Source: Paracidobacterium acidisoli (GTDB lineage Bacteria > Acidobacteriota > Terriglobia > Terriglobales > Acidobacteriaceae). From it: a stretch of 64,000 nucleotides of DNA. Under the pieces are notes generated by a model, which saw only the letters and a program-made list of their open reading frames with translations, did not search any database and had not been told where the DNA came from. A program made the position numbers and the translations under genes. Location of the stretch: contig NZ_QVQT02000004.1 in NCBI RefSeq assembly GCF_003428625.2, positions 62,001 through 126,000 of the forward strand. The letters are read 5' to 3'. Below, one piece after another: positions 31,132 to 38,920 of the stretch (positions are counted from its first letter, which is position 1; every line of letters begins with the position of its first letter).

Positions 31132-33222
<2,091 letters not shown>

Positions 33223-33393: not shown

Positions 33394-34263
33394 ATGCACA
33401 ATGGGGATAAATACTCGCTGACTCAGGACTCGCAGGTAATAGAAGGTCTGCGCGCTGAGATTGAAAAAGCAGAACCCTCAAAACGCGCGAGGATTCTGGA
33501 AAAATTTCTACTCGCTGCTTTGAGTAGTATCCCCTGGGTGGGTGGTTTTCTTAGTGCGGCTGAAAGCTTCCGAGCGGAAGCGGGAACAAATCGCCTGAAT
33601 CATCTTCAAACGGAATGGCTGAAAGAACATCAAAAGAAGATCGGTATTCTAGGCCAGGCATTGGAGGAAATCGCAAACCGATTAGATGGCCTTGGCGATG
33701 AGATTAACGAACGTGTTCAAAGCGAGGAGTACTTAGCACTTGTACGCAAAGCATTCCGCATCTGGGATGAATCTGATACAGAGGAGAAACGCCGTCTACT
33801 TTCTAATGTAATTACAAATGCAGCTGGGACAAGAGTCTGCCCAGATGATGTGATTCGTCTTTTTCTTGATTGGATCAAGATTTACAACGAAGTGCATTTT
33901 GCAGTTATTCGCGAGATATATCAGAATCCGGGTTCTACCCGCTTTGATATTTGGACTGAGCTTTATGGAGAAATTCCACGAGAAGACTCTTCAGCAGCCG
34001 ATCTATATAAGTTCTTGATTCGTGAACTGAGCACAGGCGGTGTCATTAGGCAAGAACGAGATATCAATTCGGTTGGTCGATTTGTACGCAAGAGGACCAG
34101 GCATGTGCGGAAGGGAACTACTCCCGCAACACTGGAATCTGCTTTTGAAGACACAAAGCCTTATGTGCTAACGAATCTTGGTAAAGAATTCGTTCATTAC
34201 ACAATGAATGAAATGGTTCGGCGTATTTCTACGGATACAGTAAATGACCAGAGTAAATCCTAA
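33394..34263 (+). CDS. AT-rich hypothetical protein, possible defence-type gene
   Basis: The 289-residue protein is encoded by DNA visibly richer in A/T than all its neighbours, with many AAA, GAT, TTT and ATT codons, which suggests transfer. A short hydrophobic segment FLLAALSSIPWVGGFLSAA lies near 43-61, then coiled helices, then EEYLALVRKAFRIWDES..EKRRLLSNVITNA near 112-146. A winged-helix-like C-terminal half (YKFLIRELSTGGVIRQERD) ends at a conserved-looking LTNLGKEFVHY. EKRRLLSNVITNA is reminiscent of DUF4393/Abi-alpha-like proteins, but I do not claim membership. No strong ribosome-binding site precedes the ATG. Confidence 0.6.
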   Translation: MHNGDKYSLTQDSQVIEGLRAEIEKAEPSKRARILEKFLLAALSSIPWVGGFLSAAESFRAEAGTNRLNHLQTEWLKEHQKKIGILGQALEEIANRLDGLGDEINERVQSEEYLALVRKAFRIWDESDTEEKRRLLSNVITNAAGTRVCPDDVIRLFLDWIKIYNEVHFAVIREIYQNPGSTRFDIWTELYGEIPREDSSAADLYKFLIRELSTGGVIRQERDINSVGRFVRKRTRHVRKGTTPATLESAFEDTKPYVLTNLGKEFVHYTMNEMVRRISTDTVNDQSKS

Positions 34264-34363: not shown

Positions 34364-35326
34364 TCACCCCACCTCAAACACTTCAAATTCCAGGCTGCGC
34401 GCCAGCGGCAGCGTCGCCAGCTTCTCCTGAACCTCGTCCGCGGAACCCGCCCGCACCGTCAAAAATCCGCGCCACTCTGCTGCATCGGAAGCCGTGAACG
34501 CCTCATCCAGCACGAACCCCGTGCGGCGAAATTCCGCCATCTGCGCGCGTTCCGCCGGAAGCAGCGTCTCCCGCTCCGGATCGGGGCCGTTCTTCCGGCG
34601 CAGGACCACCCGGAAGCGCTTCTTCGTATCTGGTCCCCACTGCGGAAAATCCTGAAACGGCGGGAGCACGATCGGCGCTTCGTCGAAGATGCCCGGCAGC
34701 CGTGCCCGCAGCTTTTCGAGATATTCGGCGCGCGTGTCATCGCTGGCTCGCGCGGCGCCCCACGCCACAAAAGGCTCCAGCGGCTGAAAGCCATTGAACC
34801 AGAAGACGCCATGCTGAATTGGTGCCATTACCGCAGTAAACGCCGGGCTCACTCCGCGCCCGCTGAACGCCACCGGAAGCGCGCCCGTGGTCATCAGTGC
34901 CATTGCTCTGGCTCCGCGCAGCGATCCCAGACCGCCTTCAAACAGCTTCGCTCCACCATACACCCGGCCCATCGGGAAGGCGCGGTCCACCCAGCCCTTC
35001 AGAATCGCCGGCAAACCAAACCACCACAGCGGAAAGGAAAATATCAGCAGGTCCGCCGCCTCCAGTTTGCGAATCTCCGCCTCCAGCTCCGGCGCAAAGC
35101 TGTTCTGTTCGGTAGCGTACAGCTCCTCCTGCTGCTGTTTGTAGTACTCCGCATTCTTCACGGTGGTGAAATTGCTGCGCCAGGAAACCGGGTCGAAGCG
35201 CTGCGCATACAGGTCGGAGACGGCAACGCTGTGCCCCTGCTGCGTCAGAACCTCTGCGGCCGTGCGTGCGAGCGAGGAACAAAAGCTCTGCGGCTCAGGA
35301 TGGGCGTGAACAATCAGAATCTGCAA
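34364..35326 (-). CDS. NAD(P)H:quinone-type flavodoxin-fold reductase fused to a YCII-like domain
   Basis: TTG at 35326, 9 nt after AAAGGAG, starts the protein at QILIVHAHPEPQSF, the FMN/FAD-binding opening of the NQO1/KefF family; the frame extends to 35350 without a site. Residues 1-230 carry FSFPLWWFGLPAILKGWVDRAF and the GALPVAFSGRG segment of this family. The last ~85 residues (RFRVVLRRKNGPDPERE...LEFEVFEV) form a YCII-like ferredoxin domain. It likely reduces quinones or other electrophiles with two electrons. The added domain is unusual and may handle the product. Confidence 0.85.
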   Translation of the reverse strand: MQILIVHAHPEPQSFCSSLARTAAEVLTQQGHSVAVSDLYAQRFDPVSWRSNFTTVKNAEYYKQQQEELYATEQNSFAPELEAEIRKLEAADLLIFSFPLWWFGLPAILKGWVDRAFPMGRVYGGAKLFEGGLGSLRGARAMALMTTGALPVAFSGRGVSPAFTAVMAPIQHGVFWFNGFQPLEPFVAWGAARASDDTRAEYLEKLRARLPGIFDEAPIVLPPFQDFPQWGPDTKKRFRVVLRRKNGPDPERETLLPAERAQMAEFRRTGFVLDEAFTASDAAEWRGFLTVRAGSADEVQEKLATLPLARSLEFEVFEVG

Positions 35327-35512
35327 GCGGCGTTTCTCCTTTGCCGTCAAACGGCAAATCCGCCTTCAGCATAAGCGGACGCTCCTCATGCGGCAATCCT
35401 GCCGTTTCCGACCGCTCTTTCTGATTCCGGGAGAACCGCTCCAGCCTCCCCGGTAAGAGCCGAAGCCTTTGGCTCCCGCCACAAAGCCGGCGACGCCCAC
35501 CGGGAACACAGG

Positions 35513-35740
35513 CTAACGCCGGATCGGCAGGAGAATGACGATTGGATACGGAGTCGGAAGCGGATGCGAGCCCGACCCCAGCGTCGTCTTCAACGCAGTA
35601 ATGTCTTCATGACTGGCGCCCAGTCCGAGCTCGTCATAAAACTTCGAAGCGCTTGCCAGAAACTTAGCCCTCGCCTCCGGATCGGTTTCCAGCTTCTTCT
35701 GCAGCTCTTCTTTGGTGATTGTGCCTGTTTTCTCTGTCAT
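35513..35740 (-). CDS. Putative RiPP precursor with NHLP/Nif11-like leader
   Basis: The 75-residue peptide has a strong site (AAAGGAG, 7 nt before ATG). Residues 8-40, opening ITKEELQKKLETDPE and ending FYDELGL, resemble the helix-forming leader of nitrile-hydratase-like and Nif11 precursors (KLETDPEARAKFLAS). A short linker ALKTTLGSGS precedes a hydrophobic, Pro-rich C-terminus HPLPTPYPIVILLPIRR. It starts 12 nt downstream of a radical SAM gene, as a substrate would. The leader resemblance is by eye; the boundary near GSGS is inferred. Other explanation: a small regulatory partner of the enzyme. Confidence 0.65.
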   Translation of the reverse strand: MTEKTGTITKEELQKKLETDPEARAKFLASASKFYDELGLGASHEDITALKTTLGSGSHPLPTPYPIVILLPIRR

Positions 35741-35752
35741 GCTCTCGCTCCT

Positions 35753-36763
35753 TTATGGTTGCGTCTGGAACAGGTTCAGCTTCTCGTCGTGCTCTTCGAC
35801 ACATCGGAGCACATACTCAATCTCCATCTCTTCGTAAATACCGGCCAGCTCCTCCTGCAGCCCCGGCTGCGTACGCAGATTCCGGCAGATCTGGCAGACC
35901 GAATCCACATCGGCAAAGCGCGGCAGCCGCTCGTAAAGCACCTTATCCTGCTCGCGCACCTTCGCATACAGTCGGTCGAAGCCAATCTCCTTGGCGATCC
36001 GCGCATGCAGGAGCGTATACACACGGGTCAGAATCGCCTCCGCCGGCTCTGTAAACGCATTGCCGCATCCAAGCCCGGCCTCCTTGTTGAAACCTCCCGA
36101 GCAGCAGGGATACGTGTCCCCATTGGGGTAGACCGTAATGTCATAGTGCCGCGGCTGGCGGCAGGTGTACTTCGTTTCCTCTGGCAGATGGTAGCGCGGC
36201 GCCTCGCCCGCCAGCTCGCGAGCCCGGCCGATCGATGTCACAAGGTTCGAGTGCATCTTCACACCCGGCATAGCGGGCAGCATCTCCTCCAGCTTTTCCC
36301 CCTCGGACCAGAAGACTCCATAAACTAAAAATTCGACGCCCGTCTCGCGGCAGGCTCCGGCAATCCATCTAATCTGTTCCGAACTCACCCAGCGCGCATG
36401 CTCGTGGTCATAACTCACGCACAGGTTGTTCATGCCCAGACCGGCCAGCGCAGCAAGCCGTTCCAGCGCCATCTCCGGTGATTTCGCCCAGAACCCCGAA
36501 GTCACCATGCGGAAAGGCTGCCGCACGCCTGCTCGGCGTACATCGACCATGATTTTTATGATCTCCGCGTAATAGACAAACGGATCGCCGCCCGTAAACG
36601 CAAAGTCTGTCACGGATTCCTGCATGGCGAAGCGCACCATCGCCGGGCCCACATTCGCAGGCTCCGCGCGCCCCGGCCCCACCACCTCCTGCGTGTGACA
36701 GCAGAAGTTGCACGCGAGCGGGCAGGGAGCATTGTAGACAAATCCGATGGTCGCACTATTCAA
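35753..36763 (-). CDS. Radical SAM enzyme with SPASM-like C-terminus, probable peptide maturase
   Basis: The 336-residue protein begins at TTG 36763 (AGGA about 8 nt upstream). Its radical SAM triad is CPLACNFC (Cys 14, 18, 21), with GGDP at 58-61 as the GGE-like motif. C-terminal cysteines at 201, 220, 221, 233, 290 and 293 (YPCCSGGF..GCGNA, VCQIC) look like SPASM or twitch auxiliary-cluster sites. Such enzymes form thioether, C-C or epimer changes in ribosomal peptides. The gene directly precedes the leader-like peptide gene, so that peptide is the likely substrate. The reaction cannot be told. Confidence 0.85.
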   Translation of the reverse strand: MNSATIGFVYNAPCPLACNFCCHTQEVVGPGRAEPANVGPAMVRFAMQESVTDFAFTGGDPFVYYAEIIKIMVDVRRAGVRQPFRMVTSGFWAKSPEMALERLAALAGLGMNNLCVSYDHEHARWVSSEQIRWIAGACRETGVEFLVYGVFWSEGEKLEEMLPAMPGVKMHSNLVTSIGRARELAGEAPRYHLPEETKYTCRQPRHYDITVYPNGDTYPCCSGGFNKEAGLGCGNAFTEPAEAILTRVYTLLHARIAKEIGFDRLYAKVREQDKVLYERLPRFADVDSVCQICRNLRTQPGLQEELAGIYEEMEIEYVLRCVEEHDEKLNLFQTQP

Positions 36764-37024: not shown

Positions 37025-38920
37025 GTGTATACGCCCAGACTGAGGCACATTATCCTCGCCTCACTCACCCTCGCTCTGCCCCTCTTCGCTCAAACCACGC
37101 CCGTCCTTCAGGTCCGGATCGACAAGCCCCTTCACGCCATCAGCCCCACCCTCTACGGCCTCATGACCGAGGAGATCAACCACTCCTACGATGGCGGCCT
37201 CTACGCCGAGCTCGTCAGCGACCGCGCCTTCACCACGCGCCGTCTCGAAAACTGGACCTCCGTGGAAAACAGCGCGAACGGCATCTCCATCGCCATCGAC
37301 AAAACCACCGGCCCGAGCGAAGCGCTGCCTCTCAGCCTGAAGCTGACCGTCTCTCAGGCCGATACCGGCGATCCCGCCGGCGTCAAAAACGATGGCTACT
37401 GGGGATACCCGCTTCACCCCGACACCACATATCAGGGCTCGCTCTACGCAAAGGCCGATGACGCCTCCATCGGCCCCGTCACCGTCGAGCTCGTCAACGA
37501 TCGCACCGGAGCCGTCGCCGCCCGCGCCGTCACCGCGCCGCTCACGCAGGACTGGAAGCAGTACCGCTTCACCCTGCACACCGGCGCCATCGCCGCTTCG
37601 ATCGATAACCACCTCGTCCTTACCGTCGCCCACGCCGGAACCGTCTGGCTGCAGCTCGTCTCCCTCTTTCCGCCGACTTATCGCGATCGCGCCAACGGCA
37701 ATCGCGTCGATCTAATGGAGAAGCTCGCCGCCATGCACCCCACCTTTCTGCGGCTGCCCGGCGGCAACTACCTCGAGGGCGACCACATCCCCGAGCGCTA
37801 TGAATGGAAGAAGACCATCGGCCCGCTCGTCGACCGCCCCACGCATCCCAGTCCCTGGCGCTATCAGTCCTCCGACGGTATGGGCCTGCTTGAGTTCCTC
37901 GAATGGTGTGAAGATCTGCGCATCCAGCCCGTGCTCGCTGTCTACGCCGGCTACTCCATGGCGCAGGAGCACGTAACCCCCGGCCCCGATCTCGATCCCT
38001 ACGTCCAGAACGCCCTCGATGAAATCCAGTACGTCACCGGCGGCCCCGATACAAAGTGGGGAGCCGAGCGCGTAAAGGACGGACATCCCGCTCCCTTCCC
38101 GCTCAAATACGTCGAAATCGGCAATGAAGACTTCTTCGATCGCTCCGGCAGCTACGACGGCCGCTACGAGCAGTTCCATAAGGCCATCAAAGCGCAATAT
38201 CCCGATCTCCAGCTCATCGCCACCACATCGGTAAAGAGCATCCGCCCCGACGTCATCGACGATCACTTCTATCGCCGCGCGCACGAGTTCTTCTCCGATA
38301 CGCATCACTACGACAACACCGATCGCAGCGGACCGAAGATCTTCGTCGGCGAATGGGCCACGCGTGAAGGCTCGCCTACTCCCAACATGGGTGCGGCCCT
38401 CGGCGACGCCGCCTGGATGACCGGCCTCGAGCGCAACAGCGACATCGTGGTCATGGCCAGCTATGCGCCGCTCTTCGTCAACGTCAATCCCGACGCCATG
38501 CAGTGGAGCTCCGACCTCATCGGCTACGACGCCATGCACAGCTACGGCTCGCCCAGCTATTACGCGCAGGTCATGTTCGGCGAGTATCGCGGCGAAGAGG
38601 TCGTGGCCTCTTCCGCACAGGACGCCGGCCCTCTGCTCTTCTGGTCTGCCACGCGTGATGCCGCAAAGGGTCTCTTCTATCTCAAGGTGGTCAACGCATC
38701 GCCGAAGCCGCAGCCGCTTGAGATCAGGCTCGACGGCGCATCCATCGCCGCTGCCGGCCGCCTCATCACGCTCAAGGGCAAAACCACCAGCGACACCAAC
38801 ACCCTCACCGATCCGGATCACATCGTTCCCGTCACCCGTCCCATCACCGGACTCGGCTCAACCATTCACCACACCTTCGCGCCCTACTCCGTCAACGTGC
38901 TCGAGGTGCGTACGAAGTAA
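37025..38920 (+). CDS. GH51 alpha-L-arabinofuranosidase, exported
   Basis: GTG start with GGAGG 9 nt upstream; 631 residues with a signal peptide (HIILASLTLALPLFAQ). The N-terminal part includes a carbohydrate-binding-like beta domain around 80-215. The catalytic barrel follows, with FLRLPGGNYLEG, the acid/base Glu in EIGNEDF (near 368) and the nucleophile in FVGEWATREG (near 443). It releases arabinose from arabinan or arabinoxylan side chains, probably in the periplasm or outside. A LacI-type operator precedes it, which suggests sugar induction. Confidence 0.92.
   Translation: MYTPRLRHIILASLTLALPLFAQTTPVLQVRIDKPLHAISPTLYGLMTEEINHSYDGGLYAELVSDRAFTTRRLENWTSVENSANGISIAIDKTTGPSEALPLSLKLTVSQADTGDPAGVKNDGYWGYPLHPDTTYQGSLYAKADDASIGPVTVELVNDRTGAVAARAVTAPLTQDWKQYRFTLHTGAIAASIDNHLVLTVAHAGTVWLQLVSLFPPTYRDRANGNRVDLMEKLAAMHPTFLRLPGGNYLEGDHIPERYEWKKTIGPLVDRPTHPSPWRYQSSDGMGLLEFLEWCEDLRIQPVLAVYAGYSMAQEHVTPGPDLDPYVQNALDEIQYVTGGPDTKWGAERVKDGHPAPFPLKYVEIGNEDFFDRSGSYDGRYEQFHKAIKAQYPDLQLIATTSVKSIRPDVIDDHFYRRAHEFFSDTHHYDNTDRSGPKIFVGEWATREGSPTPNMGAALGDAAWMTGLERNSDIVVMASYAPLFVNVNPDAMQWSSDLIGYDAMHSYGSPSYYAQVMFGEYRGEEVVASSAQDAGPLLFWSATRDAAKGLFYLKVVNASPKPQPLEIRLDGASIAAAGRLITLKGKTTSDTNTLTDPDHIVPVTRPITGLGSTIHHTFAPYSVNVLEVRTK

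Follow-up and report, generated by a model that had tools for sequence, protein, structure and literature searches.

Epipeptides are described from Firmicutes, where they are encoded by a five-gene cluster. In the cluster of Bacillus subtilis, epeXEPAB (yydFGHIJ), the radical S-adenosylmethionine (SAM) enzyme EpeE (YydG) epimerises the small precursor EpeX (YydF) at Val36 and Ile44, and a critical cysteine is used in the reaction, about which the review says no more than that (PMC8326336). The epipeptide of B. subtilis causes membrane damage, and without the transporter the producer itself comes under stress from it (PMC7026026). We analysed a 64,000-nucleotide (nt) stretch of the genome of Paracidobacterium acidisoli (contig NZ_QVQT02000004.1, positions 62,001 to 126,000; hereafter the window), in which a first-pass annotation had picked out a radical SAM enzyme gene and a small gene as a candidate cassette for a ribosomally synthesised and post-translationally modified peptide (RiPP). 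Our analysis makes it probable that these two genes form a minimal RiPP cassette of the epipeptide kind, in which the enzyme would epimerise aliphatic residues in the tail of the small protein.

Both genes lie in the same orientation on the minus strand, with the precursor gene downstream of the enzyme gene. The latter (35753..36763, 336 aa) must start at TTG, with no earlier start possible, since a stop two codons upstream closes the frame. Its own stop is separated by 12 nt (35741..35752) from the ATG of the precursor gene (35513..35740, 75 aa), and the ribosome-binding site AAAGGAG (35748..35754), found 7 bases 5' of this ATG within CCATAAAGGAGCGAGAGC-ATG, overlaps the enzyme stop codon. 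The gene layout and strong ribosome-binding site of the first-pass annotation are thus both present.

The enzyme is distantly related to the epipeptide epimerase EpeE/YydG. Among NCBIfam models it scored best with TIGR04078 (YydG peptide epimerase; E=1e-26, 94 bits), and its best sequence matches in the PDB are the EpeE structures (8ai1, E=3e-20). An AlphaFold2 model built from a 15-sequence alignment (predicted local distance difference test, pLDDT, 84.5; predicted template modelling score, pTM, 0.83) matched EpeE (8ai1) in Foldseek over nearly the whole chain (E=5e-20, template modelling (TM) scores 0.78/0.82). The radical SAM CxxxCxxC motif reads CPLACNFC (Cys 14/18/21), and the C-terminal part carries the six cysteines that the first-pass annotation had called SPASM-like (C201, C220, C221, C233, C290 and C293), together with C321; the resemblance to SPASM itself is only a loose one, as the Pfam match falls below the cut-off. 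The three motif cysteines and C201, C220, C290 and C293 do not vary across 27 relatives, in which conservation of C221 is at least 90%. C201, C220, C290 and C293 are probable auxiliary-cluster cysteines. The presumed key residues of EpeE, taken as D210 and C223 from the titles of the PDB entries for the D210A and C223A mutants, align with D208 and C221 of the window enzyme, with a spacing of 13 residues in both proteins, which makes C221 the putative hydrogen donor. On the other hand, the D208 position is not strictly conserved, being occupied by Glu in the EpeE of B. spizizenii.

The 75-aa protein consists of a leader (approximately residues 12-50), a GSGS linker (55-58) and the tail HPLPTPYPIVILLPIRR (59-75), and occurs once in the genome. 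AlphaFold2 placed a helix at 10-55, followed by an unstructured region, with low confidence (pLDDT 61). No relevant Pfam or NCBIfam model, NHLP and Nif11 included, matched it at E-values up to 10, so the NHLP/Nif11-like leader proposed in the first-pass annotation is not borne out; the sole profile match was the unrelated OmdA (E 0.05-0.14). Among 250 genomes of the bacterial family only chance-level matches to the precursor were found (best E 0.04), and these were rejected upon inspection. Neither did it resemble YydF/EpeX, with no NCBIfam match and a local alignment no better than those of shuffled sequences (2,700/5,000). When the 1,303 window frames were ranked with a leader profile built on seven other EpeE-like precursors, the window precursor was not in the best 12, and for this reason we do not claim that all EpeE-like systems have a leader in common.

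The informative relative of the precursor came from a phage. A scan of viral contigs found a 78 kb IMG/VR contig with terminase and tail genes (IMGVR_UViG_3300048929_000741; L073), encoding an enzyme 37% identical to that of the window over its full length (5e-87). A 64-aa open reading frame (ORF; L073:6065-6259), preceded by the ribosome-binding site AAAGGAGGTG, lies 44 nt downstream of this enzyme gene. BLASTP of the window precursor against the phage precursor reported nothing; the two were compared by full Smith-Waterman alignment with shuffles and a reciprocal-frame control. Residues 12-47 of the window precursor and 6-41 of the phage peptide aligned over 36 residues without gaps (ELQKKLETDPEARAKFLASASKFYDELGLGASHEDI / ELKETLINDEVARFKYKASVMRFLEENGVELDEEMI), scoring 55 where shuffles averaged 20.4 and none of 20,000 reached that score, whereas the tails did not match (score 13, shuffle mean 11, reached by 4,212 of 20,000). 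The two peptides were moreover reciprocal best frames among 207 frames of the phage contig and 1,303 of the window. As pairing, gene order and leader are conserved while the tail diverges, the pattern is that of a RiPP precursor, and the pairing with a variable core that the first-pass annotation had named as support for its proposal is found in this one relative. The phage cassette differs from that of the window in the longer intergenic gap, the unrelated tail, the residue at the Asp210 position of the enzyme and its setting, surrounded by tail and terminase genes. When phages and plasmids were searched with the phage peptide, there was either no match or an E-value of at least 1, and a viral-contig scan with both precursors gave no confirmed relative.

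In the enzyme tree, the window and phage enzymes paired (support 99/96) and were joined by two enzymes from Allochromatium plasmids (98/96), this cluster being separate from the groups of epipeptide, lasso and other plasmid enzymes. The putative hydrogen-donor cysteine is kept in the window, phage and Allochromatium enzymes. The Allochromatium loci (L019, 7190-9842; L020, 7190-9751) encode a 61-aa peptide ending CSTSIITIVY, a 190-aa protein, the EpeE-like enzyme and EcsC. Their enzymes, in the tree the nearest cellular relatives of the window enzyme, retain the Asp and Cys pair, but the peptide lies upstream, separated by the 190-aa protein, has an unrelated leader, and is placed inside a type III-B CRISPR (clustered regularly interspaced short palindromic repeats) locus. 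The tails end in IVILLPIRR (window), LITVL (phage) and IITIVY (Allochromatium), and hence contain the pentads IVILL, LITVL and IITIV; a run of five I/L/V/T within the last 12 residues was present in 1 of 749 window frames. The pentad should be given little weight, but it fits an enzyme with aliphatic targets, such as EpeE has in EpeX.

According to the mechanism that we propose, the small gene would encode a precursor whose leader is helical and whose C-terminal tail is hydrophobic. The enzyme, using SAM and its [4Fe-4S] cluster, would generate a 5'-deoxyadenosyl radical that takes the alpha-hydrogen of at least one aliphatic residue in the tail, with Ile and Val residues I67, V68, I69 and I73 of PYPIVILLPIRR as the most likely targets. 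To judge from the EpeE fold and the conserved residues, C221 would then return a hydrogen from the opposite face, giving D-residues. Leader removal and export, if any, may be carried out by proteins encoded elsewhere, such as general proteases and exporters, or the peptide may act inside the cell. By analogy with the B. subtilis epipeptide the product would probably be membrane-active, and activity on the producer's own membrane is conceivable, because that epipeptide stresses a producer without transporter.

Compared with epeXEPAB, the window pair shares the EpeE fold by prediction, cysteines for the radical SAM and auxiliary clusters, counterparts of C223 and D210, a small precursor with aliphatic residues in its C-terminal tail and a compact arrangement. 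It differs in that its precursor cannot be aligned with YydF/EpeX and is encoded downstream of the enzyme instead of upstream, and that neither an EpeP-like protease nor an EpeAB-like transporter was found in the Pfam scan of neighbouring genes. On these grounds, and with its enzyme below the family cut-off, the pair is not an epipeptide system in the strict sense; it most likely works like one.

Several observations weigh against an epimerising cassette. The 94 bits of the enzyme are far below the equivalog cut-off of TIGR04078 (300 bits), and its identity to EpeE is about 23%, which leaves a different radical reaction possible. The phage enzyme carries Ser in the position of EpeE Asp210. Sampling about 400 genomes from the family (where enzymes reach 28% identity at most), 396 from the phylum and 349 from the class yielded no orthologue of the enzyme; exact peptide patterns likewise revealed no close orthologue in genome and viral contigs. 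The leader match rests on a single relative, and the tail pentad was spotted post hoc, with more such runs to be expected in low-GC genomes. Finally, the pair lacks companion genes for a protease, a transporter or immunity, as the first-pass annotation had noted: none of the genes scanned with Pfam at approximately 25-45 kb of the window was a candidate for a peptidase, an ABC transporter or immunity, a negative that does not extend to a few ORFs of this region without a Pfam family.

The alternative that survives best, although we regard it as unlikely, is a RiPP cassette with another radical modification, such as a crosslink (C-C or C-O) formed at Tyr65 or His59, or a bond joining aliphatic side chains. 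The low identity to EpeE and the missing Asp210 equivalent of the phage homologue would fit this, as would the very different precursors with which EpeE-like enzymes are paired, including those with lasso-type leaders in the family and Asn-rich cores on plasmids. Against it stands the retention of the putative hydrogen-donor cysteine in the three enzymes of the group. Moreover, the phage tail SNSNLITVL has neither an aromatic residue nor His, so a chemistry common to both peptides would not be at Tyr or His, and the features that the two tails do share are aliphatic. Thioethers are excluded because neither precursor contains Cys, and the lack of Cys in the window precursor rules out a sactipeptide, ranthipeptide or lanthipeptide, in line with what had been anticipated from its core. 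Of the chemistries put forward in the first-pass annotation (a crosslink, a change at Tyr or His, or epimerisation), epimerisation is now the leading and best-supported candidate, through the relationship of the enzyme to EpeE in sequence and modelled fold.

Still less probable is an ordinary role of the 75-aa protein as a small partner or regulator, with another substrate for the enzyme. Such a role would be consistent with its lack of a profile match and with the lack of processing or export genes nearby in the Pfam scans, but only the N-terminal part is conserved and the tail diverges; in addition, the gene order recurs in the phage, and many of the EpeE-like enzymes examined have next to them either a small peptide or a protein with leader and core. 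That the enzyme is viperin-like, or another radical SAM enzyme not acting on peptides, and the ORF beside it a coincidence is very improbable, for although viperin-like structures were the next best, unrelated folds in Foldseek (1.7e-7, TM 0.48) and the phage homologue had a weak PADLOC match to pVip (2.8e-8), the Foldseek E-value of EpeE was better than that of viperin by some 12 orders of magnitude, the window enzyme had no PADLOC match at 0.01, and the pairing with a peptide recurs in the phage.

The window cassette can also be set beside other peptide systems. Proteusins, with PoyD/OspD-type epimerases and NHLP/Nif11 leaders, likewise have D-residues in aliphatic cores and, by eye, a helical leader of similar style, but the window leader matches neither profile and the genome (97% complete) has no match to a C39 peptidase (PF03412). 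Within the bacterial family of the window, most of the examined loci with an EpeE-like enzyme are lasso-type clusters (L013-L015, L017, L018), in which the enzyme is accompanied by HPr-kinase-like and PqqD-like partners; the single precursor scanned from them passes the lasso leader model, and the enzymes keep the Cys-Cys motif but have Asp210 replaced. No such partner genes were found beside the window pair in the Pfam scans, and on this ground a lasso peptide with an EpeE-like enzyme was rejected.

Elsewhere, a 79-aa peptide in Marinicella (L042, 4646-6011) and a 112-aa peptide in Photobacterium (L046, 4599-6041), both with tails of small and aliphatic residues, are followed by an EpeE-like enzyme; the first of these peptides matches the NHLP-clan model NF038399, though below threshold (E=0.011). 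In plasmid records of Collinsella (L065), Klebsiella (L069) and Thermus (L062), EpeE-like enzymes adjoin precursors whose cores are Asn-rich and alternating (NANAVTNANIILNANG..., ANANAVANANALANAN... and NVNTNLNVSTNANFNYN..., respectively). These cores are polytheonamide-like, but the enzyme is EpeE-type and not PoyD-type. The three loci also encode methyltransferases, and those of Thermus and Klebsiella SdpI-family proteins; no paper bringing together polytheonamide, SdpI and radical SAM was found in the open-access PubMed Central (PMC) literature.

Around the cassette, promoter and terminator scans gave nothing above shuffles. The next gene, 162 nt beyond the precursor gene and on the same strand, encodes a flavodoxin-fold oxidoreductase by Pfam scan (34364-35350), and upstream of the enzyme gene lies a divergent arabinofuranosidase gene (37025-38920). 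Other neighbours in the scanned region encode, by Pfam, a patatin, a DPBB/SPOR protein, a FabD-like acyltransferase, an aldo-keto reductase, an arginase-family protein and a Tes-like radical SAM protein. This last (31132-33222) is related to the tetraether lipid synthase Tes, scoring 328 bits with the model NF045702 (cut-off 450); it lies 2.3 kb from the cassette and is apparently unrelated to it. Between it and the flavodoxin-fold gene is a 289-aa ORF (33394-34263) with no Pfam family above cut-off, which, unlike its neighbours, does not pass the codon-position filter.

A search of open-access PMC papers, in which absence is weak evidence, found no description of the window pair or of a phage-borne epipeptide-like cassette. 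The peptide may be an undescribed RiPP, as initially proposed, while the enzyme belongs to a family that already has a characterised and structurally solved member. A wider reading, which we put forward only tentatively and consider rather doubtful, is that the chromosomal and phage pairs represent a transferable, self-contained two-gene module for epimerised peptides, working without a dedicated protease, exporter or immunity protein. If this were true, its peptide might act, for instance, inside the producer on its own membrane, in phage exclusion or host control. The pair would raise the question of what role a D-amino-acid peptide without its own exporter would have, above all in a phage. 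A two-gene form outside Firmicutes and their five-gene cluster, having a leader type of its own and a relative in a phage, would show epimerisation travelling as a minimal module, and the cassette would offer a small system in which to study residue choice by EpeE-like enzymes.
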